Below are positions 2,560 through 23,119 of a DNA stretch of 47,407 nt, in pieces; positions within the stretch are counted from its first letter, which is position 1, and the number at the start of each line of letters is the position of its first letter. The DNA comes from Candidatus Omnitrophota bacterium (GTDB lineage: Bacteria > Omnitrophota > Gorgyraeia > Zapsychrales > JANLHA01). The notes under the pieces were generated by a model. That model saw only the letters and a list, made by a program, of their open reading frames with translations. It was not told the origin of the DNA and made no database searches. A program made the position numbers and the translations under genes. The DNA lies in contig JAKQKX010000067.1 of NCBI GenBank assembly GCA_029560465.1, forward strand, positions 1-47,407, read 5' to 3'.

Positions 2560-2642
2560 GACAATTAAGGGAGTTATGCCACCAGAGAGCTGCTTTCAGC
2601 ATCTGCCCTTTTTTTAATGCTGGTTATGGGGTCTTGAAGCAG

Positions 2643-5159
2643 ATGAAATTAAAGAAAATCATCAGTGTTTTCATCCCCGCCATCGCGGGGTTTTTAATCC
2701 CCCCAGTATGTAGTTTTATTATACTGGGGGGTTTTTATTGGCAGCCGTTATTTTTGCCGGACGCCATGGCGCAAGGGGATAGCCCTGATTCCGGGGAACT
2801 TCCGGCCGGCGGTTCGATGGACAGAAAAGTCCGTGTGGGGCTATACGAAAACAAACCAAAAATATTCACAAGTGAGTCGGGGATGCCGTCGGGTATTTTC
2901 CCCGCCATTCTTCATGAGATCGGGCGAAAAGAAAAATGGCAGTTGATTTATACCCCTTGCCAGTGGAACGAATGTCTTGAGGCCTTGGAGAACGGCCGTA
3001 TTGATTTGATGCCGGACGTGGCTTTCTCTCCGGAACGGGACGAAAGAATAGATTTCCATTCCGAGGTGGTTGTGAACAGCTGGTCGGTCGTCTATGCCAA
3101 GAAAAGCAAACGGATGACCACGATCTCCGATTTGAACGGCCAGCGGATTGCCGTGCTGAAAGGCTCGATTCAGTACGGGCTTTTGCAGCAGATGGTGCAG
3201 GGATTTGGCTTAAAGGTTTCCTTTCTGGAGATGCCATCGTTTGAAGAAGCTTTTTGGGCAACAGCCCGTGGAGATGCCGATGCGGTTGTGGCCAATCAGC
3301 TCCTGGGCGATTATTTTTACCGGCAATACGGCCTGGAAAAACCCCCTGTCATTTTTAACCCCGTGTCACTATATTTTGCCACCGCCGCTGGTTCTAACAC
3401 GGATTTACTTAAGGCCATTGATAAAAATTTGCGGATTATGAAGTCCCAGCCCGGGTCGGCCTATTACAAGGCCTTGCAGGCCTGGGTCAAAGAAACGCCG
3501 GAGACGGTTATCCCGCCGTATTTTCTATGGCTGCTGGGTAGTGTGAGCGGGATTCTTCTCTTGGCTGTTGTGTTTATTTGGCTGCTGCGCCGGCAGGTCA
3601 GGGTGGTCACAAGAAATCTGGTTTGTGCCAATGAAAGGTTGAGCGAAAGCGAAAAGAAATTCCGCGACATTTTCCAAAAACACACAGCCGTCAAACTTAT
3701 TATTGACCTTAAGAACGGGAATATTGTTGAAGCCAATGAAGCCGCTGAAAAATTTTACGGATGGTCGAGGGATGAATTGCTGCGGATGCGGATACAGGAT
3801 ATCAACATGCTTGCGCCCGAACAGGTTGCCGCGGAGATGGAACAGGCCAGACAGAAAAGATGGTCCTATTTCGAATCCCGCTACCGCTTGGCCAACGGCT
3901 CTGCCCGGGATGTCGAGGTATTTAGCAGTGTGATTGATATTAAAGGTGAACCATTTCTTCACTCCATCATTCATGATATCACCGAGAAACGTAAACTGGA
4001 GCAGCAATACCGTCAGGCCCAAAAAATGGAATCCGTGGGCCGGTTGGCAGGAGGTGTTGCCCACGATTACAATAATATGCTTAGTTTGATTCTTGGTTAT
4101 ACGGAATTGGCGTTGGTCAAAATAGACCCGGCTGACCCGATTTATGCCAACCTGACCGAAGTGTTAAATGCTGCCCGACGTTCTGTTGACATCACCCGCC
4201 AACTCCTGGCCTTTGCCCGCCGGCAGCCCATGGAACCTAAAATTCTGGACCTGAATCAGTCTATGACAGCGATGCTTAAAATGCTCCGGCGGCTCATCGG
4301 CGAGGATATTGAGCTGACCTGGCGTCCCGGCGCCGAGGTGTGGTCAGTTTATATTGATCCGACCCAACTTGATCAGATTCTGGCCAACCTGTGTACCAAT
4401 GCGAGGGACGCTATTGCTGGAGTGGGAAAAGTCATTATCGAGACGGGAACTGTGACTTTCGACGAAGTCTACTGCGCGGGACATGAAGGCTTTATCCCTG
4501 GCGATTTCACCATGCTGGCTGTGAGCGACGATGGGTGCGGCATGGACCGGGAAACCCTTAACAATATTTTTGAGCCGTTTTTTACAACCAAAGGAGAGGG
4601 GAAGGGCACCGGGCTGGGCCTGGCGACTGTTTACGGCATCGTCAAACAGAATAACGGCTTTATCAATGTGTACAGTGAGCCGGGCCGGGGAACGGCCTTC
4701 CGGATTTATTTGCCCCGGCATGAGGGGGCCGTCGTTGAGATAATTTCCACCCGGGAGGAGGAGCTCCCCCGCGGTCATGGTGAAAGGGTGCTTTTGGTTG
4801 AGGATGATGAGTCAATCCTGGCACTGGGCGCTAAAATTTTGGAAGAATTTGGATATCATGTGCTGACGGCGAAGACGCCCACCGAGGCCCAGCGTCTGGC
4901 CGGCGCCCATGCCGGGGAAATTGATTTGCTTATTACCGACGTGATTATGCCGGAGATGAATGGCCGGGAGCTGTCTGACCGCCTGCGTGCTTTGTGTCCT
5001 GGCATGAAAATTTTGTTTATGTCGGGGTACACCGCCGATGTCATCATCCCCAGGGGTGTGCTGGAGGAGGGGGTGAACTTTATGCAGAAACCTTTCACGG
5101 TCAAAGATGTTTCCGTTAAGGTGAACCAGGCGTTGGGAAAAGGGCGCGAAGCGGTGTGA
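2643..5159 (+). CDS. Hybrid sensor histidine kinase with periplasmic solute-binding domain
   Basis: About 838 aa. Order: signal peptide ending near PDAMA|Q (1-43); periplasmic SBP_bac_3-type binding domain (about 61-283, with [14 protein letters not shown]-like core); one membrane helix (about 292-317); PAS domain (about 339-450); HisKA with phospho-acceptor His about 474 in GGVAHDYNN; HATPase_c with N box NARDAI and G box DDGCGMD; C-terminal receiver with phospho-Asp about 766 in [11 protein letters not shown]. The layout is BvgS-like: a ligand such as an amino acid is sensed in the periplasm and phosphate passes internally from His to the receiver. No Hpt domain or output regulator is adjacent. 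ATG 2643 is preferred, but an in-frame TTG at 2634 is possible. The signal-peptide codons contain two terminator-like hairpins (2675-2736), which is odd. Confidence 0.9.
2675..2695 (+). terminator. Terminator-like hairpin 1 inside the kinase signal-peptide region
   Basis: CCCCGC (2675-2680) and GCGGGG (2685-2690) form a 6-bp G/C stem with a 4-nt loop, followed at once by TTTTT. It has the form of an intrinsic terminator although it lies inside the reading frame. Confidence 0.6.
2699..2736 (+). terminator. Terminator-like hairpin 2 inside the kinase signal-peptide region
   Basis: CCCCCCAGTAT (2699-2709) and ATACTGGGGGG (2721-2731) are perfectly complementary over 11 bp with an 11-nt loop, followed by TTTTT. 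This is one of the strongest intrinsic-terminator shapes in the window. Together with hairpin 1 it suggests attenuation of the kinase gene, or the end of a short leader RNA. Confidence 0.7.
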
Positions 5160-5454: not shown

Positions 5455-6336
5455 ATGTTTTTGATGTTTTCAGATAAATTGGTGGCCGCGTCTTCCGGCC
5501 GTTTCGCGGTGCGGGATTTTGGCGGTGAGGGGCGGGATGTTTTGCTGGTGCACGGCACAGGGCATAACCTCGAGGTCTGGGGTCCGGTGGCGGCATTGCT
5601 GCGCCAGAGGTTTCACGCCGTGGCTTTTGATATGCGGGGCCACGGGCAGACGCCAGTGAATTCGAAAGACGCGGAAGAATACTGGAGGGATATCGGCGCG
5701 GTTAGCGCGGCGTTGGGGTTGCGTTTTCCGGTTCTGGTCGGCCATTCAGCCGGAGGGTATGCGGTCACGGCTTTCGCCGCTTCCGGAGGGGAGTGCGCGG
5801 GGGTGGTGATCGTGGATGGCTTTGTTTTAGATGGCCGCGAAACCCCGGAAGGCGCGCACGCATGGGATATCCCGGAACAACAGCTCTGGGACATGTTCCG
5901 TTACGGGTGGAAGACGGATCAGGAGTCGGTGGAAGGATATGTCCGTGACGTGTGCGCGGCTGCGGAGCGGGATTGGCTGAACAAAGGGGTGCCTCCGGAT
6001 CTTATCGCGAAATTCACCCGCCGGTCATTTTTCCGTAATGGGGACCAATGGCTTCGCCGGCCGACCATGGAAGAGATTAGGACCGCCGGACGTCCGGATC
6101 CCGGAAAATTAATTTATCCGTCCGTTGATATTTATGCCAAGATACGGGTTCCGATGGGGTTTATTTTCGCGAAAGACGGGCTTTATAAAGGCCGGAAACA
6201 GGAAGTCCAGGTTTTGTCCGTTCAGGGGCAAGGACGGATTTTTCTTGAAGTGGATTGCGGACATAATGTCCCGATGCTGTGCCCCGGCGCTGTGGCCGGG
6301 ATGGTTGAGAAGATCGCGTCTTTGCCGGCTTTTTGA
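5455..6336 (+). CDS. Alpha/beta-fold hydrolase (cytoplasmic)
   Basis: A 293-aa alpha/beta hydrolase. The oxyanion segment LLVHGTGHN (about 25-33), nucleophile elbow GHSAGG with Ser98 and C-terminal catalytic His270 in CGHNVPM are all present, and the fold order (FDMRGHGQT after strand 4) is normal. Such enzymes cleave esters, lactones or similar bonds; the substrate cannot be told. No signal peptide is seen. ATG 5455 and ATG 5464 are both possible starts; neither has a good ribosome site. A second, exported hydrolase of the same superfamily lies about 1 kb downstream, beyond the slipin gene. Confidence 0.85.
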   Translation: MFLMFSDKLVAASSGRFAVRDFGGEGRDVLLVHGTGHNLEVWGPVAALLRQRFHAVAFDMRGHGQTPVNSKDAEEYWRDIGAVSAALGLRFPVLVGHSAGGYAVTAFAASGGECAGVVIVDGFVLDGRETPEGAHAWDIPEQQLWDMFRYGWKTDQESVEGYVRDVCAAAERDWLNKGVPPDLIAKFTRRSFFRNGDQWLRRPTMEEIRTAGRPDPGKLIYPSVDIYAKIRVPMGFIFAKDGLYKGRKQEVQVLSVQGQGRIFLEVDCGHNVPMLCPGAVAGMVEKIASLPAF

Positions 6337-6349
6337 TTACGCGAGATAA

Positions 6350-6538
6350 ACTGGGAATCGGCCGTGCGATGGCGTGGCATCGGCCATATCATTTTGCAAA
6401 TCGCCTTCCCAGGTCGGTCAAACCGGGGTTCAACTCCCCACGGTCTTGTCTTAAGGAGGCCGTTGTTCAGGACAGCGGTCTTGCAGGTGCAAAACCTCCA
6501 CCGCGATCCTGCGGCTTCCTTAAGCCGGGACTTTTTTT
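6350..6538 (+). ncRNA. Highly structured region before the slipin gene (candidate ncRNA or leader)
   Basis: The gap 6337-6556 holds several nested complementary segments. CTTAAGGAGGCCG (6450-6462) pairs with CGGCTTCCTTAAG (6512-6524) over 13 bp with one G-U. Inside it CAGGA/TCCTG (6468-6472/6507-6511), GCGGT/ACCGC (6475-6479/6500-6504) and AGGT/ACCT (6485-6488/6494-6497) continue the rod. A T7 run follows at 6532-6538. Upstream, GGGG-TTCAACT-CCCC (6425-6439) looks like a tRNA T-arm, CGGT-CAA-ACCG precedes it, and GGCCGTG (6360-6366) can pair with CACGGTC (6440-6446). A full cloverleaf cannot be drawn. I do not recognise a known riboswitch. It could be a small RNA with its terminator or a leader controlling the slipin gene. 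Confidence 0.45.
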
Positions 6539-6556
6539 AGAAAGGAGACGGTGCCG

Positions 6557-7297
6557 ATGCAGGTATTTCCCGTGATTGTAAGCATTATCATCGTGTGGAT
6601 TGGGATTTTGTATTTAATATCGCAGCATTCCATTATCGTTTATGAATTCGAGCGGGGGCTAAAGTATCGCAAAGGCCGGTTTGTGGGGGTCTTGAATGCC
6701 GGCCGGTATTGGATATTTTTTCCGGGCACGACCGTGAAGAAGATCGACGTCCGGCCCAAATTTATTTCCGTCCCCGGCCAGGAGGTTTTAAGCGTGGACA
6801 GCGTGACTTTGAAAGTCAGCGTTGCCGCGCGTTACGAGATTGCCGATCCGAACCTTGCCGTCAACAAGATTGAGAATTATACCGAAGCTTTTTACGCGGT
6901 CGTGCAGCTGGCGATCCGGGAAATCATCGGCTCGATGAAGATTGATGAGATTTTGGAACAGCGCCCGGTGTTGAACCAGAAGCTCATGGACTTAACGGCG
7001 GGCAAAGTGGAAGAGATGGGGATCAGGCTTCAGCTTATCGGGATCAAAGATATCATGTTCCCGGGTGAGCTCAAAAAGGTTTTTGCCAAGGTTATAGAGG
7101 CGCAAAAGGAAGGGTTGGCCGCTTTGGAGCGCGCCCGGGGAGAAACCGCGGTTTTGCGGAACCTCGCGAATGTGGCCAAGGTCTTGGAGGACAACCCGGC
7201 TTTGATGCCGTTGCGGGCGCTGCAGTCAACGGGCAACACGGTCGTGATCGGTGTCGGGGGCGCGGTCATCCCGGCTAAAGAGAAGAAACAAGGATAA
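6557..7297 (+). CDS. Slipin / stomatin-like SPFH (band 7) membrane protein
   Basis: A 246-aa slipin. The N-terminal hydrophobic segment (about 4-24) anchors it to the inner membrane. YEFERGLKYRKGRFVGVLNAGRYW-type sequence starts the SPFH domain, followed by the typical SVDSVTLKVSVAARYEI segment and a C-terminal coiled-coil stretch (AQKEGLAALERARGE). Stomatin-type proteins oligomerise into membrane cages or scaffolds and often modulate proteases or channels. ATG 6557 sits 10 nt after AAAGGAG; a GTG at 6551 is too close to it. No NfeD-type protease partner is adjacent; the neighbours are two alpha/beta hydrolases. Confidence 0.9.
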   Translation: MQVFPVIVSIIIVWIGILYLISQHSIIVYEFERGLKYRKGRFVGVLNAGRYWIFFPGTTVKKIDVRPKFISVPGQEVLSVDSVTLKVSVAARYEIADPNLAVNKIENYTEAFYAVVQLAIREIIGSMKIDEILEQRPVLNQKLMDLTAGKVEEMGIRLQLIGIKDIMFPGELKKVFAKVIEAQKEGLAALERARGETAVLRNLANVAKVLEDNPALMPLRALQSTGNTVVIGVGGAVIPAKEKKQG

Positions 7298-7319
7298 ACT
7301 ATTTTGTGCGGAGGGATTC

Positions 7320-8213
7320 ATGGGAAAGAAAATAATCAGGATCGTCCTTTTTGCCTTTTACGCGGCCGTCATCGTGTCCGCGGCTGTCCCGGCGCAAGCC
7401 GAAGACGGCGTGGCTGTCTCCAAAGACGGGACGCCTATCGCTTTTTCCGTATATGGCGAAGGCGAGCCGGCTTTGATTTTTGTGCACGGGTGGTGCTGCA
7501 ACCGTTCGGTGTGGAAAAACCAGGTGCCTTATTTTGAAAAAGAATATAAAGTCGTGACTCTGGATTTGGCCGGCCACGGCGCCTCCGGGACAGAGCGGGA
7601 CGTGTATTCCATGGAAGCCTTCGGCGAAGATGTGGCCGCGGTGGTCCGGCAGATGCAGGCGTCTCAGGTTATTCTCATCGGCCATTCCATGTCTGGGATG
7701 GTGATTATCGAAGCGGCGGAAATCATCCCCGATCATGTCATCGCCCTGATCGGCATTGACACGATGCAGGATTTAGAGGAAACCTATCCCCCGGAGCAGA
7801 TCGAAGAGCACCTGAAGCCCTTCAGGGACGATTTTAAAACGACGGTGGATTCTTTTGTCCGCGGCATGTTTGTGGAAGGGACGGACCCCGAGCTGATGGA
7901 TGAGGTCGCGGGCATGATGTCGGGTGCGTCGCAGAAGACCGGCGTGAGCGCCATGGAAGAAATGATGAAGATGTCTTATATCACTGATCCCCCGTACATC
8001 AAAGTCCCGGTCTGGTGCCTTAATGCTGATCTTTGGCCGACCAACCCGGAGGTGAACCGGAAATATGTCCCGGAATTCAACCTTCGCCTGATGCCGGACC
8101 GGGGGCATTTTATCATGCTGGAAGACCCTGATGAATTTAACCGGGAACTGGATGGGATCATTAAGGAAATCAAAGCGGACGCTTTGGACGAAGAGGACGG
8201 GGGGAACTATTAA
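7320..8213 (+). CDS. Exported alpha/beta-fold hydrolase
   Basis: A 297-aa protein with a signal peptide (MGKKIIRIVLFAFYAAVIVS, cleavage near PAQA|ED) and an alpha/beta hydrolase domain: oxyanion motif FVHGWCCN (about 57-64), Ser123 in GHSMSG and His263 in DRGHFIMLEDP. It therefore probably acts in the periplasm or at the outer membrane. ATG 7320 is chosen because GGAGGGATTC precedes it; the open frame extends further upstream into the slipin gene without a start that would make sense. It follows the slipin gene by 22 bp and precedes the TPR/barrel gene by 5 bp, so slipin, hydrolase and barrel look like one operon. Confidence 0.88.
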   Translation: MGKKIIRIVLFAFYAAVIVSAAVPAQAEDGVAVSKDGTPIAFSVYGEGEPALIFVHGWCCNRSVWKNQVPYFEKEYKVVTLDLAGHGASGTERDVYSMEAFGEDVAAVVRQMQASQVILIGHSMSGMVIIEAAEIIPDHVIALIGIDTMQDLEETYPPEQIEEHLKPFRDDFKTTVDSFVRGMFVEGTDPELMDEVAGMMSGASQKTGVSAMEEMMKMSYITDPPYIKVPVWCLNADLWPTNPEVNRKYVPEFNLRLMPDRGHFIMLEDPDEFNRELDGIIKEIKADALDEEDGGNY

Positions 8214-9655: not shown

Positions 9656-10246
9656 TTATTCTTCAGGCCAAGGGGCAGTCGGTGATGTCGGCGAGCTAGG
9701 CGCATTGGGCCCAACCGGAGCATCAGGGCCGACGGGCGCGTTAGGGCCGACAGGAGCGCTGGGGTCATTGGGTCCAACCGGAGCTTCAGGGCCGACCGGC
9801 GCATTAGGCCCAACAGGAGCGCTGGGGTCATTGGGTCCAACCGGAGCTTCAGGGCCGACCGGCGCATTAGGCCCAACAGGAGCGCTGGGGTCATTGGGTC
9901 CAACCGGAGCTTCAGGGCCGACCGGCGCGTTAGGGCCGACAGGAGCGCTGGGGTCATTGGGTCCAACCGGAGCTTCAGGCCCGACGGTTGTCCCGGGTTC
10001 GACTGGCGCGTTGGGCTCGGCCACATTTCTGGCAGGAGCCTCAGGGGTAACCGGAGAGCCCGGCCCTATCGGTTCCTCAGGTGCTGCCGGTGATTTGGGC
10101 CCTGTTGGTGAATTTGGCGGAGTTGGAGATTTGGGTTGTGCTGCTGATGGCGCGCTGAAAATAAAAGACATCGTGAACAAGAATGCGAAGGCGCAACCAA
10201 GCAGTATTTTGAACCTTTTGAATTTCTCCGGTGATTTGATAAACAT
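9656..10246 (-). CDS. Secreted Pro-rich tandem-repeat protein
   Basis: A 196-aa protein with a signal peptide (about 1-36, hydrophobic [20 protein letters not shown]) followed entirely by Pro/Gly/Ala/Asn-rich sequence. The core is a 21-residue repeat ([21 protein letters not shown]) present about four times. AAAGGAGAGTCA stands directly before ATG 10246 on the minus strand, which supports this strand. It probably forms an extended surface or wall-spanning rod; no enzyme motif exists. The same DNA read on the plus strand is an uninterrupted Gly-X-Y collagen-like frame, without a usable start site. Confidence 0.75.
9705..9990. repeat. 63-bp direct tandem repeat
   Basis: Units begin at 9705, 9768, 9831 and 9894 (TTGGG...), exactly 63 bp apart, with a partial fifth from 9957. 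The units are nearly identical, so recent slippage or recombination is likely. They encode the 21-residue repeat of the minus-strand Pro-rich protein. Confidence 0.9.
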
Positions 10247-10766: not shown

Positions 10767-13700
10767 ATGAGAAAGTCATTTTTTCTGACCGTAATTTTAA
10801 TGCTGGTCGGCAGCCTGGGTGGGTATGCCCGTTTGGCGGCCGGGGAGTCCCCTCGACAGGCCGAGTTGAAGTCCATGATGGAACAGCAGATTTATGTCCC
10901 TTATGAAAACCTTCCGGACGTGTTGGAGAAAGAAGGAAAGGGCGTGTTGATCCCGCATTCGGATTTCCTCAAATTATGGGAAAAAGCCGCTCAGCAACCT
11001 CCGGAAAGCGTTTTGCCGCCCCCGCCGGTCGATGCCGCTATTGTGTACGCTGAATATCAGGGCACGGTGACCGAAGACATCGCCGAGTTCCGGGCTAAAT
11101 TGAAAGTCTCGGCTTTAAAGAAAGAATGGGCCCGTATTTTCTTGAATATGGAAGGCATCGCGATCACGTCTTTGTCTATTCAAAATCAAACGCCGTTGTT
11201 AAAGCCCGTTCCCGGAGGACTGGAACTTATCCTTCCGGAAAAAGGGGATTATGAACTTCAGATGAATTTTTCCGCCCGGGTTAATACCGCGCCGGGGGAA
11301 AAGTTCATCCATTTTAAGCTCCCCGCCTCGCCGTTAACGAAAATCAGCATGGTTATCCCTGGGAAAGACCTTGATGTCAAGATTGAGCCTATGCTTTCCC
11401 AGCAAAGCACGGTTACCGGAGAGAACACGCAGTTCTCCGCGTTTTTATCCCCGGCCGGCGACGTGGATATCCGCTGGCTCGCGAAGAGCCAGGAAAGCAA
11501 GGAAGTCAAGAGCCTGGTTTTCGGCAGCTTGTCCAGCGAGGTGTTCATCAAGGAGTCGGTTTACCTTATCACCACCCGGGTTTCCTGCGCAGTGATGCAG
11601 GCCAAGACCGATATTTTTCAACTGCGGATCCCGGATGATTTAAGTCTGGTTAACGTGAGCGGCGGCAATATTAAAGACTGGGACCTTGGGGGGGACGGCG
11701 TCCTCACCGTCAACCTTTATGAAAAGGTGGATGGGAATTACACGTTCACGGTGAATACGGAAAAATACCGGGACACGGAGGACACGAGTTTTACCGTTCC
11801 GCAATTCGAGCTGGTGGACGCCAAGCGGGAAGACGGGGAGGTCATTATTAAAGCGGATTCTGCGCTTCGGGTTCAGGTTGAGGAAAAAGAGCACGTGACT
11901 CAAATCGACCCCAAAGAGCTGGCTGGCCGGGTGGCGTTTGAAGATTTTGTGTCCGCGTTCAAATATTTCCGGCGGCCTTACCGGGTGAGCCTGAAAATCT
12001 CCATGATCCAGCCCAAGATCACTGCTCAGCAGAATATCCGCATTTCTTTTTCTGAAACCCTGGTTGATTATTTCAGCCAGGTTTTGTTCCAGGTGAAGGA
12101 TGCTGGGGTCTTTAAGTTCCGGTTCCTGGTCCCGGAGAACTTCCGGCTTGTTGAAGTCGGTGATGATAAGACCGTCGACAGCTTTTCCGTCGAGCAGGAA
12201 GGCGGGCAGAACGTCCTGACCGTGATTTTGAAGAATAAAGCGTATGGTGATTTCCGGCTCCCGGTCCATCTGGAAGCTGATAAAGAGGATAAAGACATCG
12301 CCCTTCCGATGCCCAGGGTCCAGAGCCTGGACGCGGAAAAGGAAGAGGGGGTGATCTCGCTGTCTTTGCGCAAGAACCTCAAGCTTTCCACCGAGGATAT
12401 TAAATCTTTGCGGCCGATCAGCCTCGAGGAGCTGAGGTTGCTGGGGGCCAGTGACCCTGACCAGAAAAATGAGGTGGCCGCCGGATACCGGTTTTCAACA
12501 CCGGATTATTCCTGCCGGCTCAAGATTGATAAACGGGATACCAAGATCATCGCGAACGTCGAGAGGAGCGTCAGCATTGAAGAGACCGTGATGAAAGTGT
12601 CGGACGTGGTGCATTATAACATCCTGTACGCTCCGGTCAGCCAGTTTCGGATTGAGCTGCCGGAAGCACTGGCCAGGGACGCGGTGATCAGCGGGGTGAA
12701 TATTAAAGAGAAACGGCTTTCGTCCCGGCCGGAAACAAAGACCGGGGTCTGGGATGTGACGCTTCATTCCCCGATGTTGAACCAGTATGACTTGACGGTC
12801 ATGCTTGAGAGGAAACTCCCCTCCATCCCCACGGGGGAGAAAAGGACGATCACGGTGCCCGGGATCCGGGTGCTGGATGTTTTTGACGAATCCGGGTTTA
12901 TATCGGTCGCCAAGAGCCCGAACCTGCAGGTGGAAGCGCAGGACACCAACCTGGAGCTGATTGATTCCAAAGAACTTCCCGCCACGCTCAGCCAGGGTCA
13001 GAGTGTGCTGGCCTTCCGTTACCTCAGCCATCCGTATTCCCTGGTCTTGGAAACCACCAAGCATGAGTATGAGAAGATCCTTGATGCCATCGTTAACCAG
13101 GCCCATTTTGATATCGTCGTTTCGAATGAAGGGCTTGCTAAGACAGAAGGGGTTTTTAACATCCAGAACACAAACCGGCAGAGCCTTGAGCTGACTATGC
13201 CGCCGGGGACCGACAAGATTTATTCGGTCTACATTTCCGGGAAGAAGGCGAGCATCTCACGGGGAAGCTCGGAGCGGAGCAAGATTGTCATGCTCCCCAA
13301 AGATATCGCGCCGGGGCAGGAATTTAGTTTGAGAATCCTTTACCAGACCCAGGTGAATGCCAAATTCGGGTTTATAGGCGGACTCCGGGTCGAGAACGCG
13401 GAAATCAGCGATGTCCCTACGTCCAAGATCACATGGCGGCTGTATCTGCCGCAGGAGTTCAGTTATTTGTATATGGCCGGAACGATGAACCCGCAAAACG
13501 GGGACGGGGCGGCTTATAATGACATTAACCCGGCGATCCCGTCCCGGCGGGTCACGAGCCCGGTTAAGATCAATTTGAACTCGGAGCAGATCCCGCAGCA
13601 GAAAGATGAATCTGAATTTTACGGGCTGGATGTCAACATGATCCGGCAGGGGCGGATGTATTCTTTCTCCAAGCTCGACCGGGGTGCTGACCTGCGCGTT

Positions 13701-14009
13701 TGGTTTATCAAGAAAAATATTCTGTTCCCGTTAAGCCTGATTTTACTCGTGTTGCCGGGACTGCTGTATTTCACCGTGGTCCGTAAGAAATCCAAAAACC
13801 CCGTGAGGGTGGCGGCGGTTTTCCTTTTAACCGTTATAATTTTGAACATCCTTCTGCCGCAGGGGTTCAAATATTTTGTTTCTTTATTTTTTACAGGCAG
13901 CCTTATCGCCTTGGTCGGATCCGGGCTCTATCGATACCTGCAGAGCCGGGAGACCTTTCGAAAAACCGTGGGCCGGATCCCCAAGAAGAAAAGCGGGTCC
14001 AGTCAATGA
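10767..14009 (+). CDS. Giant exported protein, module A, with C-terminal membrane helices
   Basis: A 1080-aa protein with a signal peptide (1-27), an N-terminal segment containing VLIPHSDFLKLWEKA (about 61), a long beta-rich ectodomain, and three or four hydrophobic helices at the end (about 983-1060, starting ILFPLSLILLVLPGLLYF). Recurring FKYFRRPYRVSLK (about 396) and FRYLSHPYSLVLE (about 749) mark repeated domains. DVPTSKITWRLYLPQEF lies at about 882. The same landmarks occur at nearly the same spacing twice in the next gene, so the two are paralogous. The large ectodomain is likely periplasmic and held by the C-terminal helices. I know no named family; function unknown. Start chosen by GGAGGGG 7 nt before ATG. 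It overlaps the next frame (ATGA). Confidence 0.8.
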   Translation: MRKSFFLTVILMLVGSLGGYARLAAGESPRQAELKSMMEQQIYVPYENLPDVLEKEGKGVLIPHSDFLKLWEKAAQQPPESVLPPPPVDAAIVYAEYQGTVTEDIAEFRAKLKVSALKKEWARIFLNMEGIAITSLSIQNQTPLLKPVPGGLELILPEKGDYELQMNFSARVNTAPGEKFIHFKLPASPLTKISMVIPGKDLDVKIEPMLSQQSTVTGENTQFSAFLSPAGDVDIRWLAKSQESKEVKSLVFGSLSSEVFIKESVYLITTRVSCAVMQAKTDIFQLRIPDDLSLVNVSGGNIKDWDLGGDGVLTVNLYEKVDGNYTFTVNTEKYRDTEDTSFTVPQFELVDAKREDGEVIIKADSALRVQVEEKEHVTQIDPKELAGRVAFEDFVSAFKYFRRPYRVSLKISMIQPKITAQQNIRISFSETLVDYFSQVLFQVKDAGVFKFRFLVPENFRLVEVGDDKTVDSFSVEQEGGQNVLTVILKNKAYGDFRLPVHLEADKEDKDIALPMPRVQSLDAEKEEGVISLSLRKNLKLSTEDIKSLRPISLEELRLLGASDPDQKNEVAAGYRFSTPDYSCRLKIDKRDTKIIANVERSVSIEETVMKVSDVVHYNILYAPVSQFRIELPEALARDAVISGVNIKEKRLSSRPETKTGVWDVTLHSPMLNQYDLTVMLERKLPSIPTGEKRTITVPGIRVLDVFDESGFISVAKSPNLQVEAQDTNLELIDSKELPATLSQGQSVLAFRYLSHPYSLVLETTKHEYEKILDAIVNQAHFDIVVSNEGLAKTEGVFNIQNTNRQSLELTMPPGTDKIYSVYISGKKASISRGSSERSKIVMLPKDIAPGQEFSLRILYQTQVNAKFGFIGGLRVENAEISDVPTSKITWRLYLPQEFSYLYMAGTMNPQNGDGAAYNDINPAIPSRRVTSPVKINLNSEQIPQQKDESEFYGLDVNMIRQGRMYSFSKLDRGADLRVWFIKKNILFPLSLILLVLPGLLYFTVVRKKSKNPVRVAAVFLLTVIILNILLPQGFKYFVSLFFTGSLIALVGSGLYRYLQSRETFRKTVGRIPKKKSGSSQ

Positions 14010-14029
14010 CACGGGGGAAACTTAGGGCA

Positions 14030-17000
14030 ATGAAAAAATGCCTTATATTCTTAACGGCGCTGATGGCGTGGCGCCTGCTTTTCCCTGTTCCCTTGGCGGC
14101 GGAACCATCCACCCTCGTCCCCGGCACCCCTGTGCGGGAGACCATGATATTTTTACCGGAAAAAGAAATGACGCGGGTATTCGCCCAGGAACAGGAAGGG
14201 ATTTTTGTCTCTTATCAGGAATACCGGGAACTTTATGAAAAGGCTAAGACGGCGTATCTTAAGAAAGTCCAGGAAGCGGCTGTCCCGGAAGGACTGCAGA
14301 AGCCTTTTCTTGTGCAGGCCAATTATACGGGTGCCGTCGAAGACGCGCTGTTAAACCTGTCTGCCAGGTATCACATTGTTTATCATGGCCAGGAGGCCTG
14401 TTTTTTCCCGTTTCCGCTCAAGGGTGTTTTTCTTCAATCGGCGGTTTTAAACGGGGAGAAAGTGTTGATTCAAGAAGTGGACGGGCTTCCCCGGGTGCTG
14501 CTCCCCGGCAAGGGCGCGTACGATTTGACCGTTCATTTCCTGGCGCCGGTTGATTTTAATGAAGAAAGCGGGCAGGCTTCTTTTTCTGTGCCTCCGGTTT
14601 TGTTCGGTGACATTCGCCTCGTGGCCGACACTTTTTATGATATTCGTTTTCCAGGCCTGGCCCTGGTGTCTAAAAATCCGGTTGGGGACCGCGTTGAATT
14701 CTTGGGATTCTTCGGCCCGGAAGACAGCCTTTCCATCGGGATTACAAACCGTCGCTCATCCGGGGAAAAGCGGGTCCAGGTCAGTTCCCGCGAGGAACAT
14801 CAGGTGTTTTTATCCCGTGACCTGGTTGAGCAGGTGGTGCAGTATTTCCTGGATGTCCGTCACGGGGAAGTGAACAGCGTTGAGATCGCGGTTGACCCGG
14901 CGGTGCATGTCCACGAAGTGTCGGGGCCGGGGATCGCCGGCTGGGTCAGGGAAACATCAGGGGCCGGGGATATTTTGCGCCTGACGTTCCATCTCCCTTT
15001 AAGTGGGGAGACGCGTTTTTTGCTGAAAACATACCAATACCCTTCGGCTGGGATGGAGCCGCTTCGGTTTACGGACAGCCGGATCGAAAAGGTGTTTGAC
15101 AGGAAGGGGACGCTCAAAATCTATTATGATGACAGCGTGCGGCTGGAAGCTCTGGACACGCGGTATTTGCGCCCGGTGGTCGGCCGTGCGGACGCCGGAG
15201 AGGAGAGCCCCGGGCGGTATTCCCTTTATGCCGAATACCAGGTGTTTAACCTTCCTTACGAAGTGTCCCTGGCCCGTTTTGCCGTCCCCCGGCAGGTCCT
15301 GGTCGAGCAGCATAACGACCTGGATGTGGGAGAGAGTAAAATCCTTTTTGACTCCGAGCTCACGCTGACGGGTTTAACCCCGGGCACGACGCAGTTCCTT
15401 TTGAATATCCCGGAGGGGTACACGGTGGACGACCTTTCGGTTTACGTGAACGCCGAGGCGGTCCAGGAGCATCATGAATATCATCCGTCCCAAAACGCCC
15501 TTCAGGTGGTTATCCGGCACCCGATCACGGCGAAGGACGAGGTCGTTATGACGGTGCATGCTGAACGGCTGATCGGGGAAGAGACATTCAAGGATCGGGC
15601 CCAGGGGATTGTCATCCCGGTGATCACATACCCGGAGGCGGGAAAAATGACCGGGAGCCTGAATGTCAAAATTGACGAGATGTATTTGCTGGCCGATATT
15701 CTTTTAAAAGGGTACACACCGGCGGAAGAGATGCTTAGCGTTGAAGGGGATGACCCGGGCGGGAAAAAGCTGCTTTATGATTTCCGGAGCCTTGCCCCGC
15801 AGGGGGAGATCCTGCTTTCCCTGCGCCAGGCGGAACAAACCTCCAAGACCGTCAGTTTTATCGCGGTGGATGAAAACCTTTTAGTGACGAACGCGTATGT
15901 CCGCTATAGCATAACATCCGGCAAGAAAGACAGCTTTTATTTCGCGATACCGCGCTGGCCGGGGAGTAAAATCAATATTGAGGGTGATTTTATTAAAGAG
16001 AAGAAAAAGGTCCTCACGGAAAAGGTTCCGGAATGGGTCAGGGGGGCGGGGCTGCCGGACATGGAGGGTTACGATATCTGGAATGTCGTGCTGCAAAAGG
16101 AGGCAACCGGGGAGGTCTTGCTGGCGATCGATTATCAGAAGAAAATCGAGAATTTTGATTCCCTGTTCGACGTGCCGTTGGTCGTCCCGTTGGATGTTTT
16201 AAGTGACACGGGGGACATCGTTCTGGAGGCCAGCAAGAACACAAAAATTATGACCCAGAAATCCGGGTTGAATGAATTGGAAACGTATGAGATCCCCCAA
16301 TGGCCGGCGTATAAGCCGTCCAACCGTATCATTGAATCGCTCCGGTATTTCACGCGGCCGTTTTCGTTCCGCCTGGCGGTGACCCGGATGGACGAGTCAC
16401 CGGTGCTGGCGTCCCTGGTGGAAGAGGAGGACCTTTTTTACGTCCTGGGGACAAATTCGGAAATCTTTTTTGAAGGCCGTTATCGGGTGAAAAACACGAA
16501 CCTGCAGTTCTTGCAGGTTGAACTTCCGGAAAAGTTCGTTTTCTGGGGCGCAACCCTGGACAAGGAAGGCGTCAAGCCGCGGAAAGGGAGCGGCCGTCTG
16601 ATTTATATCCCGCTGCCGGTGGACAGCGATCAGACCATTGAGGTGAGTTTGACCGGGCAGGTGGAGAGGCCTGGGCGGCCGGGTATCGTTGAAGCGCTTG
16701 ACCTGCGCAGCCCCAGATTCGACATTCCCGTCTTGCAGTCGCATATGACCGTGTTTTACCCGGAGCAGTATTCCCTTCTTCATATGCGCGGGAACTTCGA
16801 GAAATACCCGCAAATGGCGTATCCGCAGCCGGCCCTTTTGTCTTTTTTTCCCGGCGCTTTCTCTGCGCTGGGACGGAACATGGCCATGCTCGTCGGGCCT
16901 TTCTATATAAAGAGGGGCATCCAGGGGCGGCTCAAGTCCGCAACGGATGACATCGGTGATCAGTATTCTCCGGGGACCACGGCTTTGCAATCCCGGATAC

Positions 17001-20000
17001 GGGATTCGTCCGCCTATTTGAATGATCAGCCGGTTCAGCAGGGGGCGAGCCTGCAATATGAGCCGTATTACCTGGAAACAAATTATAGCCTTGAACGGGA
17101 AGCGTCCCAGCCCGGGAGAGAGGCGGATACCGCTAATCTGGTGCCTCAAGCCGCCCGGCCGCCCGCGGATTCCCAGGTTCGTTATGGTCTCCAGAAGGGG
17201 TTGTTGTCCTTGAGCATCGATATCCCGAAAGAAGGGGAATCGTTAGCCGCCCATAAATTGTGGGGGGACAGCCGCCTGCACGTGACTTTTATCTCGGGGC
17301 CGTGGAAAAAGGTGTTTAGCCTTTTTTCGGCCCTAGTGTTTGTCTTGCTCGGGTTCTATTTCCGGCGGAGGAATTTTATGAAACCGGGAATATTTTTCAT
17401 CGCGACGTTTGTCCTGGGCACGTTTATGCCCCGGGTGCTGTTCCGGCCGTATCTTTTCATGTTCAACGGCGCCATGATCGGGTCCGGCATCTTTGTCGCA
17501 CTTCTTGCCGCCAGCCATTTCGGCAGGAAGGCCGCCCGACGTCTCGGGTGGACAGCCGTGATGATTTTGACGGCGGGGTTGCTTTTGATAATAGCTCCTT
17601 TCGCATCTTTTGCCGAGGAGGCGTCCTGGCAGCTCATGAATGCCAATCAGGTTTCTTTTGAGGAAGAACAGGTGGGTTCAGGGCATCCCGGAACGGTGCC
17701 GCCCCGCTTATGCCCCGTCCCGGAGCCGGAAACGATGGCCTTCCCGGATGTCGTGGTGTATGCCGCGTACCAGGACGCGATCCCGTTTGTTTTAGACGGT
17801 ACGCAAAAATTGTATATTCCGACCGGGGATTATTTCCGTTTGAAATTGCTGGCTGACCCGCCGTATGCCCCGCCCCGGCGGTTGGATTTTGCCCGTCCGT
17901 TTGACGTCACGGGCCTTTCCTTTAAAGGGGTTCTGGAAGGGGAGACAGTCCGTTTTGAGGCCGTCCTGGATGTCTTTGTCAATAACGAGGGATGGCTGCT
18001 CGTCCCGCTGCCGTTTGAGAATGTTTTTATGAAGGAGCTTCGGTTGGACGGGCAGCCGGTCCCCATCATGATGCGGCCCGTGTCTGCGGAGCCCGCGCTC
18101 CCGCGCCTGAAAGAGGGCAAGGGGCCCGGGTCGCCGGAGGGTGTTTACGGGGTTCCGGTTTACGGGTTCGGGCACCACACTCTGGACCTCACGTTTTTGG
18201 TTGAGGTCAAATCCCTCTTAGGGAAGAAGACGCTTGCCTTCGGGTTCCCGCCGGCCGTGTTATCTGACTTCTCTTTGGATTTGAACAGCCGGGATGTTTT
18301 TGTCGAATTTGAAGAGCCGCAGGCCGTGTATTATATGGATGAAACCGGCCCGTTCCCAGTTGTCAAAGCGTCGCTTTCCCGGAAAGATTGCCTGCGGTTT
18401 TCCTGGTTCCCGAAGAAATATCTTAAGAAGGAAGAAAAACCGCTGATCTACACGGATTGCTTCCTGTCTCTGTACCTCGGGTATGAACAGATCCTTGTCG
18501 TGCAGGACACCACGGTCCGCGTGGAAAAATCTTCCATCGCGTCCATGACTTTTTCTAAAGATCCGGATTTTGTGATCACGGATGTTTTTTCTGATAAGGT
18601 GAGGAACTGGCAGGTGCGGGATGACGGGACGTTAGAGGTGATCTTTAAGCACGAGATTACCGAAAAAGTGGACTTGCAGATCAAGGCCCAGCGCGGTGTT
18701 TTACCGGATACGGTTGTTCCGGCGGTATTTTTTAAGCCGCAGGAAACGCAGCGTATTCACGGCCGGCTGAATATTTTTACCCTGCCGGGCTACAAAGTGG
18801 CCGTGCAGGAGCAGAATAATTTAAAAGTCGAGGGCATTGAAAACGGCCAGACGCGATCGGACGCTTCGGGATATCAGCTCCAGAAAAGCTATTCTTTCCT
18901 GGATGGCAATTTTCAGGCAGCCCTGGCCCGCGTTCCGGAAGAACAGCGGTTTGCGGCGGACATCCGGGCCCGCCATGATTTAACGGAAAACGTGCTGACG
19001 TCTTCTTATCAGGTCAATATAGAAGTTAAAAAGAACGTGCTGTCTGACGTGAAGGTCCGCCTGCCGTCCGGCCATAAAATCATCGCTGTTGAAGCCGGGA
19101 ATATTGCGGATTACATCGTGCAGGATGACATCCTGACCCTACCGCTCCAGAGGGCGGTTCAGGATCGTTTCGCGTTTTCTTTGGTGACGGAACACGATCT
19201 TGCCGATTTTACGCGCGTCGCGGTGGAGGGCATCGAAGTGCTGGGCGCCGAGAAGGTCACGGGCACAGCGGCTGTCCTGTTCCCCCGGGGATATGATGTG
19301 AAAGAAACAGGGGTCGCAGGGTTTAAGTCCGCCAATATCCATGATGTCTTGCCTTTATCCAGGAATGCCGCTTCCGGCGATGCCGGCGCCCGTTACGCTT
19401 ATAGTATCGGGGAACTGAAGCAGAGCGCGCGTTATGATGTTTTGAAGAAAGAACCGGTTATGGATGTTATTAACGTGTATCACGCGTCCGTCCAGGATAC
19501 GCGGGTTCATGTGGAACTGCTGTGCCTTTTTAATATCAAGAACGCGCCCGTGGACCATTTTGACATCATCGCCCCAGCGGCTCTCAAGGACGCGATCGAA
19601 ATTCAGGGGGACGGGATCAAGACGATATTGAAGAAGAATATCGACGGACAGCAGAGGGTGACGCTGTCCGTGAACACGGTGTCGAAGATCGATCACGCCT
19701 ATATGTTGCAAGTCACGTTCAACACCTATTTCGGGCAGGACAAAACATTCACCATGCCCAGGATCGTGTTCCCGCAGGTTAATAATAAGACCGAATTTGT
19801 GTCGGTGGAAGCCGATACCGCCTATCACGTGGAACCCGTGGCCGCCAAGTTTTTGCAGCAGACGGAACCGGACATGATCCCGGCGCTCCCGGCCGGGGTT
19901 GGCATCAACAATATCCTTTGGTCTTATCAGGCCGTCGGGACGGCCGAGTGGGACTACAGCTTAAGGCTCAAGCGGCTGGAGCGGGAAAAGCTTGTCAAGG

Positions 20001-21886
20001 CGAGAATCCAACGGGAAGATATTAAAACCCTCATTATCCCCAACGGGTATGCCCTGCACGAAGTCCGGCTTAAGGTCGATAACCGGACGTTGCAATTCCT
20101 TCCGGTCGTTTTTCCGTCCCAGGCGTCATTATGGAGCCTGAAAGTCGCCGGGGAGCCGGTGCGGGCGTCTTTGGACGTTGAGCAAGGGGGCGGCTCTGCC
20201 CGGCGGTATCAGATTCCGCTGGTTAAGAGCGGGGCCGGGGACCGTAGTTTCGATATCCAGATCGTTTATTTAACGCCGATTAAGCCGATGGGGTTGCTCG
20301 GCCGGATGAACCTTGCAATGATCGATACAGGGGACGTCCCGGTGGAAAAGACCACGTGGTCGTTTTTTGTGCCGGAGAATTACGCGTTATCCCATTTTAA
20401 GACCAATATGGAAGCGATTGACGTTTCTGTGATTGAGGTCGAGAAGACCCTGGATTTGGCCAAGGAATATAAATACTGGACCGGGGTGGCCCGGACGGCT
20501 AAGGGCGAATTGCGCGAAAAAGCGATCTTTAACCGGAGCAAGGTCATGAGTGATTTCGGTGACCAGTATTCGCTCGGTCAAACCATGCAATCTGACCTGT
20601 ATTCCAAACAGGGCGACAAGAAATATAACCAGGCCTTGATATCAAAAGCCCAGTCCAAGAATGTCCAGATCCTTAATGAAGCCCAGCAGATCATGGACTC
20701 TAACCGCGCTGACGTCCCTGGAACGGCGCAGTCCGGGGAAGGGGCCCCGCAAAAAGCGGTTTATGATTCCGTCCGAAGGAATGTGAAAGGCTGGCAATTT
20801 AAAACCGATAATTTTGACGGGCAGGAGCAGGTGGAGCAGCAGATTTCGCAATATTTGCAGCAGGAAGACAGCAAACAGACGGCGATGAAGACCAAAGGGG
20901 AAAGGGCTGCCCGGAGGAAAGTCGATTTAAAGAGCCCGAGCGTTGACGGGCGGCAGTCCTGGAAGGAAGCGGTTCCGGAAGAGTTATGGGACGAGGAACA
21001 GTCGGCATGGATGCCGCGCGAAGAACGGCGTCGCCGCGCGGGCATCGCAGGTCAGCAGCCCGCGCAGGTGTTTCATCAGCGGCCTGGTTCAGCCGTGCGG
21101 GAGCTCGCGCCAGGAGGGTCCCAAGCGTCACAATATGCGATGACAGACTCCTTGGATCAATCTGTTGTTAACACCCAGCAGGCTTTCTGGGGGGGGGCAG
21201 GCACGGAGACAGCGCGTCAGCCGTCCCCGGTGGTGGCGGCTCCAAAGGCGGCCCCGGCACCGTCGGAGAAGAAAAAAAGCGCCCTTTTAAAAGGGCAGCG
21301 GTCCATTGATATCCCGTTCCCCGAGCAAGGGCAGAGGTTTTCTTTTAAGAAACTCGGGGGCAATCCGACGATGACTTTTGTTTACAGAAAAAGTGAAGGG
21401 GAGGCCAGAATTATTTACCTGCTGTTTTGTGCCCTGGCCCTATTCGGAATATATAAAGTGCGCCGCGCGCGTTTCCCGGTTGAGAAGCTCGACGCGTTCG
21501 CCGGAAGGATCCGGGGCCTGCGCCTGCAGCACCTTTTTTGCGTTTTCGTGGATGCGCGGTGGTGCAAAATTGTCACTTTTACGGTGATGGTCCCCGCTTT
21601 TCTGTTCGGGGCCCCCGTATACGCCATTACGGTCGGATTTGCCAGCATATTCCTGATCAGGGCGATTTCCAACCGGCGTCACAAGAAAATGGGCCGCCAG
21701 GAAGTGTATAACGTCAAAGTGTTTTTTAAATACCTCCCGTCTTATATTATCGTCTTGGCATCTCTGTTGAGCGTGGGCCATATGGTTTTTCTTATCTTCG
21801 TGGGGATGGCGACGGCCATGAATTTATTCTTGGCGGGCGTCTACGGGCTTCTGACCGTGTTTACCAAAAAGGTAGACCAGGAATAG
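14030..21886 (+). CDS. Giant two-module exported membrane protein (modules B1+B2)
   Basis: About 2618 aa. Signal peptide 1-24 (MKKCLIFLTALMAWRLLFPV). Module B1 (about 25-1190) ends in several membrane helices (about 1090-1190). These end in APFASFAEEASWQ, which looks like a buried signal-peptide cleavage region. Module B2 (about 1195-2618) then repeats the plan. Shared landmarks relative to module starts: IFVSYQEYRELYEKA / LYIPTGDYF near 60; PEQY and DVPVEKTTWSFFVPENY near 900; DQYSPG / DQYSLG near 980. B2 has a polar Gln/Arg/Pro-rich linker (about 2177-2424) before the last four or five helices (about 2459-2618). The gene looks like a fusion of two tandem copies of the preceding gene. An upstream ATG at 14006 overlaps the previous stop; 14030 gives the cleaner signal peptide. 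Function unknown. Confidence 0.8.
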   Translation: MKKCLIFLTALMAWRLLFPVPLAAEPSTLVPGTPVRETMIFLPEKEMTRVFAQEQEGIFVSYQEYRELYEKAKTAYLKKVQEAAVPEGLQKPFLVQANYTGAVEDALLNLSARYHIVYHGQEACFFPFPLKGVFLQSAVLNGEKVLIQEVDGLPRVLLPGKGAYDLTVHFLAPVDFNEESGQASFSVPPVLFGDIRLVADTFYDIRFPGLALVSKNPVGDRVEFLGFFGPEDSLSIGITNRRSSGEKRVQVSSREEHQVFLSRDLVEQVVQYFLDVRHGEVNSVEIAVDPAVHVHEVSGPGIAGWVRETSGAGDILRLTFHLPLSGETRFLLKTYQYPSAGMEPLRFTDSRIEKVFDRKGTLKIYYDDSVRLEALDTRYLRPVVGRADAGEESPGRYSLYAEYQVFNLPYEVSLARFAVPRQVLVEQHNDLDVGESKILFDSELTLTGLTPGTTQFLLNIPEGYTVDDLSVYVNAEAVQEHHEYHPSQNALQVVIRHPITAKDEVVMTVHAERLIGEETFKDRAQGIVIPVITYPEAGKMTGSLNVKIDEMYLLADILLKGYTPAEEMLSVEGDDPGGKKLLYDFRSLAPQGEILLSLRQAEQTSKTVSFIAVDENLLVTNAYVRYSITSGKKDSFYFAIPRWPGSKINIEGDFIKEKKKVLTEKVPEWVRGAGLPDMEGYDIWNVVLQKEATGEVLLAIDYQKKIENFDSLFDVPLVVPLDVLSDTGDIVLEASKNTKIMTQKSGLNELETYEIPQWPAYKPSNRIIESLRYFTRPFSFRLAVTRMDESPVLASLVEEEDLFYVLGTNSEIFFEGRYRVKNTNLQFLQVELPEKFVFWGATLDKEGVKPRKGSGRLIYIPLPVDSDQTIEVSLTGQVERPGRPGIVEALDLRSPRFDIPVLQSHMTVFYPEQYSLLHMRGNFEKYPQMAYPQPALLSFFPGAFSALGRNMAMLVGPFYIKRGIQGRLKSATDDIGDQYSPGTTALQSRIRDSSAYLNDQPVQQGASLQYEPYYLETNYSLEREASQPGREADTANLVPQAARPPADSQVRYGLQKGLLSLSIDIPKEGESLAAHKLWGDSRLHVTFISGPWKKVFSLFSALVFVLLGFYFRRRNFMKPGIFFIATFVLGTFMPRVLFRPYLFMFNGAMIGSGIFVALLAASHFGRKAARRLGWTAVMILTAGLLLIIAPFASFAEEASWQLMNANQVSFEEEQVGSGHPGTVPPRLCPVPEPETMAFPDVVVYAAYQDAIPFVLDGTQKLYIPTGDYFRLKLLADPPYAPPRRLDFARPFDVTGLSFKGVLEGETVRFEAVLDVFVNNEGWLLVPLPFENVFMKELRLDGQPVPIMMRPVSAEPALPRLKEGKGPGSPEGVYGVPVYGFGHHTLDLTFLVEVKSLLGKKTLAFGFPPAVLSDFSLDLNSRDVFVEFEEPQAVYYMDETGPFPVVKASLSRKDCLRFSWFPKKYLKKEEKPLIYTDCFLSLYLGYEQILVVQDTTVRVEKSSIASMTFSKDPDFVITDVFSDKVRNWQVRDDGTLEVIFKHEITEKVDLQIKAQRGVLPDTVVPAVFFKPQETQRIHGRLNIFTLPGYKVAVQEQNNLKVEGIENGQTRSDASGYQLQKSYSFLDGNFQAALARVPEEQRFAADIRARHDLTENVLTSSYQVNIEVKKNVLSDVKVRLPSGHKIIAVEAGNIADYIVQDDILTLPLQRAVQDRFAFSLVTEHDLADFTRVAVEGIEVLGAEKVTGTAAVLFPRGYDVKETGVAGFKSANIHDVLPLSRNAASGDAGARYAYSIGELKQSARYDVLKKEPVMDVINVYHASVQDTRVHVELLCLFNIKNAPVDHFDIIAPAALKDAIEIQGDGIKTILKKNIDGQQRVTLSVNTVSKIDHAYMLQVTFNTYFGQDKTFTMPRIVFPQVNNKTEFVSVEADTAYHVEPVAAKFLQQTEPDMIPALPAGVGINNILWSYQAVGTAEWDYSLRLKRLEREKLVKARIQREDIKTLIIPNGYALHEVRLKVDNRTLQFLPVVFPSQASLWSLKVAGEPVRASLDVEQGGGSARRYQIPLVKSGAGDRSFDIQIVYLTPIKPMGLLGRMNLAMIDTGDVPVEKTTWSFFVPENYALSHFKTNMEAIDVSVIEVEKTLDLAKEYKYWTGVARTAKGELREKAIFNRSKVMSDFGDQYSLGQTMQSDLYSKQGDKKYNQALISKAQSKNVQILNEAQQIMDSNRADVPGTAQSGEGAPQKAVYDSVRRNVKGWQFKTDNFDGQEQVEQQISQYLQQEDSKQTAMKTKGERAARRKVDLKSPSVDGRQSWKEAVPEELWDEEQSAWMPREERRRRAGIAGQQPAQVFHQRPGSAVRELAPGGSQASQYAMTDSLDQSVVNTQQAFWGGAGTETARQPSPVVAAPKAAPAPSEKKKSALLKGQRSIDIPFPEQGQRFSFKKLGGNPTMTFVYRKSEGEARIIYLLFCALALFGIYKVRRARFPVEKLDAFAGRIRGLRLQHLFCVFVDARWCKIVTFTVMVPAFLFGAPVYAITVGFASIFLIRAISNRRHKKMGRQEVYNVKVFFKYLPSYIIVLASLLSVGHMVFLIFVGMATAMNLFLAGVYGLLTVFTKKVDQE

Positions 21887-22002: not shown

Positions 22003-22054
22003 TTTAAAAGTCTATAATATTGATTGTGACCCGGGTTAAGACAGGATCGTGTTT

Positions 22055-23119
22055 ATGAATATCCTTATTGTTGTGATCATGATACTTTTGTCCGGCCTTC
22101 AGCCGGCATGTGCCGCCAACCCCCGTGTGCAGCTTGAGCCCATGAAGATTATCGTTAAGGGGGTCGCCAAAGATTTGACGAAAGCGCAGGGCTTTCAGAT
22201 GCGGTCCCAGATGTACGTGAAGCAGAAGGCCGACGCCGTTTCTGTTGACGATGAAGTGTTCATTCTGCAGGTCAGGATAAGGAATTATACCCGGGAAAAG
22301 CTGTCTGTCTCCCAGGACGGGTGGCTCCGTGATGATGACTGGCTGGTGGATATCCCGGGCCTCGCCGTGAGTGTCGAGTCGGACCAATGCAAAATAGTCC
22401 GGATATCATCCGAGGACATTGACCCGTGTCAGGGCTCGGTGCGGTTTGAGGAGATCGGCCCCAGGATGGCGCGGGATATGAACCTGGTCCTGCGTTTTAC
22501 CGGCGCCGTGCAGAGTGGGGGGGGGGATTTTAAGGTCGGGTTGAAGGTGAAGCCCGCCGACGGGTCCAAGGAAGAGGTCGTCTGGACCCGCCCGATCGGC
22601 ATTTATATTGATCCGTGGCCGGTGCGCGAATTCCTGATGTTTTGGAATGAAAAGGAAGGCTGGCGGAACCAGCAGCGGGAGATGCGGGATAAAAAAGAAA
22701 CGGGCTTGATTTCGCGTTATTATGTTCCTGGAGGAGGGGTGCGCGTCGAAGAAAATTATGAAGGCGGGAAGTTGAACGGGGCCCGGAGGACGTATTTTGA
22801 GAACGGCGTTATTAAGGAGGAAGAGCATTACCGGGACGGCCGGCTGCACGGAGAAAAGTTCGTTTATCAAAGGAACAAGAAATTGACGATGTATGAAATT
22901 TACCTGGCCGGAGAGCGCGTGGGGTTCGTCCGGTTTTCGTCTTTTGACCAGAAACGGGACCAGCAAGAGAAGATGGCGCGCGTGAGGGCCCTGATGGCGA
23001 AAGAATATCCTCAACTGAAGCCGGATTTAAAAGTGGAACTGATTCCCCCGGAGGAAAGAGCGCCTGCCCTTTCTCCGGAGCTGCCCGTGGAAGGCGCCGT
23101 CCCCTTAACCCCCGAATAA
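22055..23119 (+). CDS. Exported protein with C-terminal MORN_2/YwqK-type repeats
   Basis: A 354-aa protein with a signal peptide (MNILIVVIMILLSGLQPACA|A). The middle (about 25-205) is beta-rich with no recognised motif. From about 228, YwqK/MORN_2 repeats appear: YYVPGGGVRVEENYEGGKLN, then RTYFENGVIKEEEHYRDGRL. These repeats make short beta hairpins and occur widely in envelope proteins; the label antitoxin for YwqK is not evidence of a toxin system here. A GTG at 22049 is also possible. It converges with the lipoprotein gene, with 17 bp between stops and no terminator. A MORN-type relative occurs at 33340. Confidence 0.75.
   Translation: MNILIVVIMILLSGLQPACAANPRVQLEPMKIIVKGVAKDLTKAQGFQMRSQMYVKQKADAVSVDDEVFILQVRIRNYTREKLSVSQDGWLRDDDWLVDIPGLAVSVESDQCKIVRISSEDIDPCQGSVRFEEIGPRMARDMNLVLRFTGAVQSGGGDFKVGLKVKPADGSKEEVVWTRPIGIYIDPWPVREFLMFWNEKEGWRNQQREMRDKKETGLISRYYVPGGGVRVEENYEGGKLNGARRTYFENGVIKEEEHYRDGRLHGEKFVYQRNKKLTMYEIYLAGERVGFVRFSSFDQKRDQQEKMARVRALMAKEYPQLKPDLKVELIPPEERAPALSPELPVEGAVPLTPE

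Follow-up and report, generated by a model that had tools for sequence, protein, structure and literature searches.

Two adjacent genes of an Omnitrophota bacterium, A and B, encode three large homologous exported modules, one in A and two (B1 and B2) in tandem in B. Judged from the sequences, the same gene order exists in two phyla, B1 and B2 are unfused in two genomes, and the double-module proteins are of separate origin. We infer that the modules form a three-subunit periplasmic complex, anchored in the inner membrane and with a non-catalytic scaffolding or binding role at the envelope, in which B is a polyprotein that signal peptidase I probably cuts in two; our confidence in this proposal is evenly balanced. 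The window, that is, the whole stretch of DNA analyzed, comprises 47,407 nt of Candidatus Omnitrophota bacterium (GCA_029560465.1, contig JAKQKX010000067.1, positions 1-47,407, forward strand). The genome that carries it amounts to 2.77 Mb in 103 contigs.

Modules of genes A and B

The reading frames of A (10767-14009) and B (14006-21886) are both intact, and their features are collected in Table 1. The longest reading frame of B begins at the first ATG, at 14006, encodes 2626 amino acid residues and overlaps the stop codon of A (ATGA). Profiles of the ~710-residue single-module relatives and of the C-terminal region define the layout of the long module as an N domain, three repeats of ~175 residues (R1-R3), a C domain and membrane helices. 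The N-terminal segment of A follows the pattern IYVPYExL/GVLIPYxEFxxLW, and its three transmembrane helices occupy residues ~983-1068. The long hydrophilic linker of B2 is located at about residues 2200-2460 of B.

Table 1. Features of genes A and B (window coordinates; residue numbers refer to the named protein)
Feature	Position	Strand	Remarks
Gene A, 1080 aa	10767..14009	+	Signal peptide, N-terminal segment, N domain, R1-R3, C domain, 3 transmembrane helices
N-terminal mini-domain of A, residues 38-76	10878..10994	+	Also in B1, B2 and Verrucomicrobiota A/B proteins
Repeats R1-R3 of A, each ~175 aa, about residues 248-745	11508..13001	+	
C domain of A with DVPxxxxTWxxxxPExF motif, about residues 746-905	13002..13481	+	
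Gene B, 2618 aa	14030..21886	+	ATG at 14030 is the likelier start
Module B1: signal peptide, repeats, C domain, RGIQGRLKSATDDIGDQYSPG segment, 3 transmembrane helices	14030..17611	+	
Internal signal-peptide-like segment of B, ending in RKAARRLGWTAVMILTAGLLLIIAPFASFA and followed by EEA	17519..17620	+	Possible signal peptidase I site between FASFA and EEA
Module B2: repeats, C domain, hydrophilic linker, 4 transmembrane helices	17612..21886	+	

BLAST aligns residues 39-907 of A with residues 45-931 of B1 (E=1.4e-38) and residues 42-907 of A with B2 (E=2.2e-31), while the direct alignment of B1 with B2 covers 295 residues only (E=1.5e-12). About 900 residues are homologous among the three, and membrane helices are found behind each of them. 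The sequence-only reading had described three colinear modules with C-terminal membrane helices and landmarks at similar offsets. It was right in this, and the observation is more general than stated; the common regions are far longer than the short landmarks. When A was used as query against the complete genome, matches were confined to A and B, and hence no further module was found.

The landmarks are all present at the expected places. The N-terminal one reads VLIPHSDFLKL at A 60, IFVSYQEYREL at B 66 and LYIPTGDYFRL at B 1269; the DVP-type motif reads DVPTSKITWRLYLPQEF at A 882, DIPVLQSHMTVFYPEQY at B 906 and DVPVEKTTWSFFVPENY at B 2110, though the B1 copy is without TW. APFASFAEEA is found at B 1197. 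The DQYSxG motif, represented by DQYSPG at B 985 and DQYSLG at B 2186, had been read as exclusive to the halves of this protein, a view which does not hold: the related forms GDQFSP and GDQYAP occupy the same place in single-module relatives.

Relatives and predicted fold

The module is found in 27 of 334 sampled Omnitrophota genomes (about 8%) and in 48 of 241 sampled Verrucomicrobiota genomes (20%), the phylum of the latter sample being taken from the named locus L089. Most Verrucomicrobiota carriers have it in single genes that encode 2050-2630 residues with two modules each, type D being common. The search for single-module relatives, as proposed by the earlier reading, yielded proteins of ~710 residues with one repeat (the S form). 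Gene A is followed by B in Omnitrophota genomes G000, G033 and G040, and part of B2 is present at a contig end in G029. The order A-B1-B2 recurs in eight Verrucomicrobiota genomes. A lies directly before a fused B in G587, G367, G356, G544, G435 and G539; in G418 the three are tandem genes, and in G570 A and B1 lie close to a contig end, B2 being the first gene of another contig. In both of the latter genomes B1 terminates after exactly three helices; the separate B2 of G418 has its own N-terminal signal peptide, while the start of that of G570 is lost at the contig end. Chimeric assembly is an unlikely source of the fused B, since its frame is open in nine genomes.

Two relatives of unusual form were observed. 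Verrucomicrobiota genome G525 encodes a single-module protein of 557 residues with the N-terminus MPYAELAGLL (L150:4441-6114), and has a type D gene elsewhere. A Verrucomicrobiota double protein (L089:3543-11126) has a prepilin/DUF1559-like insert in its middle region, at residues ~1134-1239, ahead of the final helices of module one.

No family of Pfam, NCBIfam or PADLOC scored above its curated cut-off, and this large envelope protein family of both phyla appears to be undescribed in the libraries searched. A sequence search of the PDB with two profiles gave no match, nor did viral contigs searched with A or plasmids searched with an S form. AlphaFold, applied to A (pLDDT 79, pTM 0.39) and to an S form (pLDDT 75, pTM 0.37), gives models that are almost wholly β up to the membrane anchor, and the modules are predicted to be built of tandem β-sandwich repeats of ~175 residues. 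The top PDB structure matches for the A and S models are ribophorin I/Ost1 chains (E=3e-11 and 6e-11), followed in both cases by integrin α chains. Further down the respective match lists are the inter-α-inhibitor heavy chain (A) and the N-domains of M1 aminopeptidases (S). TM-scores over whole chains are low (0.15-0.35), so the likeness to Ost1 concerns the domain fold.

Ost1 consists of two similar luminal β-sheet domains and binds glycosylated peptides (PMC7226087), a description which fits the architecture of the modules. Export, tandem similar β-sheet ectodomains and a C-terminal membrane anchor are shared with ribophorin I/Ost1 (PF04597), in the modules as predicted structures, whereas the identity is only 10-13% and the modules possess more repeats. 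The PF04597 profile matched in none of five genomes at E≤10, nor was it among the Pfam hits at E≤1, and nothing pointed to an oligosaccharyltransferase partner for the modules. In view of this fold one may ask whether the modules are bacterial structural cousins of the eukaryotic OST ectodomain. The S model also matches the N-terminal domain of the M1 family (LTA4 hydrolase, ERAP2) at rmsd 4.3-5.3 Å over about 200 columns, the lower value being that for LTA4 hydrolase, but the catalytic domain of these enzymes is not matched. No Pfam peptidase, and thus no M1 zinc HExxH domain, was recognized in the modules; the conserved TRHEE of the S forms differs from HExxH, and its HEE is lost in B1 and B2.

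The junction of B and the neighboring genes

All nine fused B proteins exhibit three helices at the junction and then a signal-peptide-like segment (G435 has one marginal extra helix), in agreement with the earlier suggestion that APFASFAEEA marks a signal peptide retained in the middle of B. The internal hydrophobic segment, in the window's B with a signal peptidase I-like site, comes after an inward-ending helix. D proteins have more helices than B ahead of the corresponding segment. In one of them, D_G439 (L146:2784-9068), the internal segment near residue 1065, LALAAAGCASLGG, is more lipobox-like than signal peptidase I-like. Inspection by eye of the junction in the window's B revealed no clear internal ribosome-binding site.

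In the mechanism that we propose, A, B1 and B2 would each be exported through Sec by their own signal peptide, each ectodomain would fold outside the cytoplasmic membrane as a rod of non-catalytic tandem β-sandwich domains comparable to those of Ost1 and the M1-peptidase N-domains, and the C-terminal helices would anchor each of them. The chain would be cytoplasmic past the third helix of B1, where the internal segment would restart export for B2; signal peptidase I would probably cut behind this segment, yielding equal amounts of B1 and B2 as distinct proteins. The three would then be anciently diverged paralogous subunits of one assembly, produced from a two-gene operon, and their likely work would be non-enzymatic, i.e. 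scaffolding or the binding of clients or glycans at the envelope. Precedent for such a plan is provided by Bradyrhizobium FbcH (cytochrome b/c1), which is made as one chain with a mid-chain signal sequence and cut into two membrane proteins. What is shared with B is the polyprotein plan with an internal signal peptide; the proteins themselves are unrelated, and cleavage of B is a prediction.

The chief rival is that B remains uncleaved, the internal segment being a plain fourth transmembrane helix that leads the chain back into the periplasm, in the four-helix middle of a two-lobed membrane protein. The topology is compatible with either arrangement, and the internal segments match ordinary helices in length (median uncharged stretch of 20 residues versus 15 in N-terminal signal peptides). 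Most carriers, furthermore, keep the fusion although separate genes exist. Against this, AxA-like sites are present behind the internal segment of 12 of 18 double proteins, the window's B included, versus 22 of 71 other helices in these proteins (Fisher p=0.0065), with segment positions placed by hand and a crude motif rule. An earlier automatic version selected wrong segments in four proteins and had a saturating score; the automatic signal-peptide test gave no difference (p=0.21). The AxA rule recovers just 6 of 13 N-terminal signal peptides and therefore overlooks many real ones; B_G040, vB_G587, vB_G367 and vB_G539 fail it in its strict form. The existence of separate B1 and B2 genes also indicates that linkage is not needed, and we regard an uncleaved B as unlikely, if by no means negligible. 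Genomes with separate B1 and B2 genes render the polyprotein idea testable.

A different role, that of envelope-stress sensors or regulators acting as the extracytoplasmic partner of an ECF sigma/anti-sigma pair, is suggested by the surroundings of certain paralogues. In one S subclade an ECF sigma gene is located upstream at 10 of 11 loci, with a zf-HC2-like gene recognized between at five. ECF sigma genes also lie upstream of four type D genes, with zf-HC2/VWA/YfbK proteins in between, and a fifth type D locus has a VWA/YfbK protein upstream, at the contig start; directly upstream, these five loci thus have a gene for an ECF sigma factor, a VWA/YfbK anti-sigma protein or both. Such operons (PF13490, PF12450, PF12034) adjoin S-subclade and type D paralogues but are absent at A+B: no ECF sigma/anti-sigma neighbor was found at any A+B locus, F locus or locus of the other S subclade. 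The modules could, moreover, be targets rather than regulators, and we consider the sensor role improbable.

The search for a conserved third gene next to A+B brought up nothing beyond antisense shadow ORFs and coincidences between pairs of loci. Proteins with MORN_2 repeats are encoded near B at window positions 22049-23119 and 33340-34215. A MORN-repeat neighbor was rejected as a partner, since 34 MORN_2 hits in the genome mean that such adjacency carries little weight. Just upstream of A, at 9703-9985, is a 63-bp tandem repeat (4.5 copies, 95% match) which is open on both strands; the minus-strand ORF over it (9656-10246) has a signal-peptide-like start and repeats, while the plus strand reads collagen-like. 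The window also encodes a hybrid histidine kinase with SBP_bac_3 sensor, PAS, HisKA, HATPase and receiver domains (2634-5159), and a SPFH/Band 7 protein between two homologous α/β hydrolases (5455-8213).

History of the modules

In the tree of the R3+C region (70 rows) a branch sets off each of A, B1, B2, D1, D2, F and S from the remaining rows. Support is weak for A (56/81) and B1 (38/33), intermediate for B2 (78/92) and strong for the other four. One branch separates the D, S and F rows from those of A, B1 and B2 (94/93), and D1 and D2 constitute one group (100/98). Grouping D1 with B1 or D2 with B2, as expected from a single origin of all doubles, is rejected (AU p=0.002 and 0.003), from which it follows that the double protein arose at least twice. 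On this tree type D is the product of a duplication and fusion apart from that of B.

These parallel fusions, each of which keeps a mid-chain signal peptide, suggest that bacteria process cellular membrane proteins from polyproteins, a phenomenon which to our knowledge has rarely been reported. Our broader interpretation is somewhat more tentative than the proposal for A and B: that Omnitrophota and Verrucomicrobiota share a previously undescribed family of giant envelope proteins built of tandem Ost1/M1-N-like domains, and that polyproteins of two modules with a cleaved internal signal peptide may have evolved at least twice within it, as a means of producing two membrane subunits in equal amounts.

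The A, B1 and B2 rows of the two phyla group by module and not by genome, with modest deep support, and in the BLAST comparison B1 resembles B2 no more than either resembles A; the triplication is therefore old. Fusion, as the sequence-only reading had it, is retained as an explanation of B, while a simple duplication before it in this lineage is not supported. Had a recent tandem duplication produced two copies that then fused, the adjacency of homologous genes and the internal signal peptide in B would be accounted for, but this course is very improbable given that B1-B2 similarity does not exceed that of A-B1 or A-B2 and that the identical three-module order is present in another phylum. 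By these comparisons an ancient three-module set replaces it.

An N-terminal segment profile trained on Omnitrophota A and B1 matches all five Verrucomicrobiota A proteins tested (E=3e-14 to 6e-16) and, more weakly (E<1e-3), six Verrucomicrobiota B1 or B2 segments; no D, S or F protein was matched. Profile scores show clear cross-phylum affinity for B2 only, so the orthology of A and B1 is based mostly on gene order, to which the N-terminal segment is added in the case of A. Fusion is common to most carriers, B1 and B2 being separate in two Verrucomicrobiota genomes. The fused protein of G587 sits inside the group of the unfused G418 and G570, which indicates that fusion, or its undoing, occurred more than once within B.
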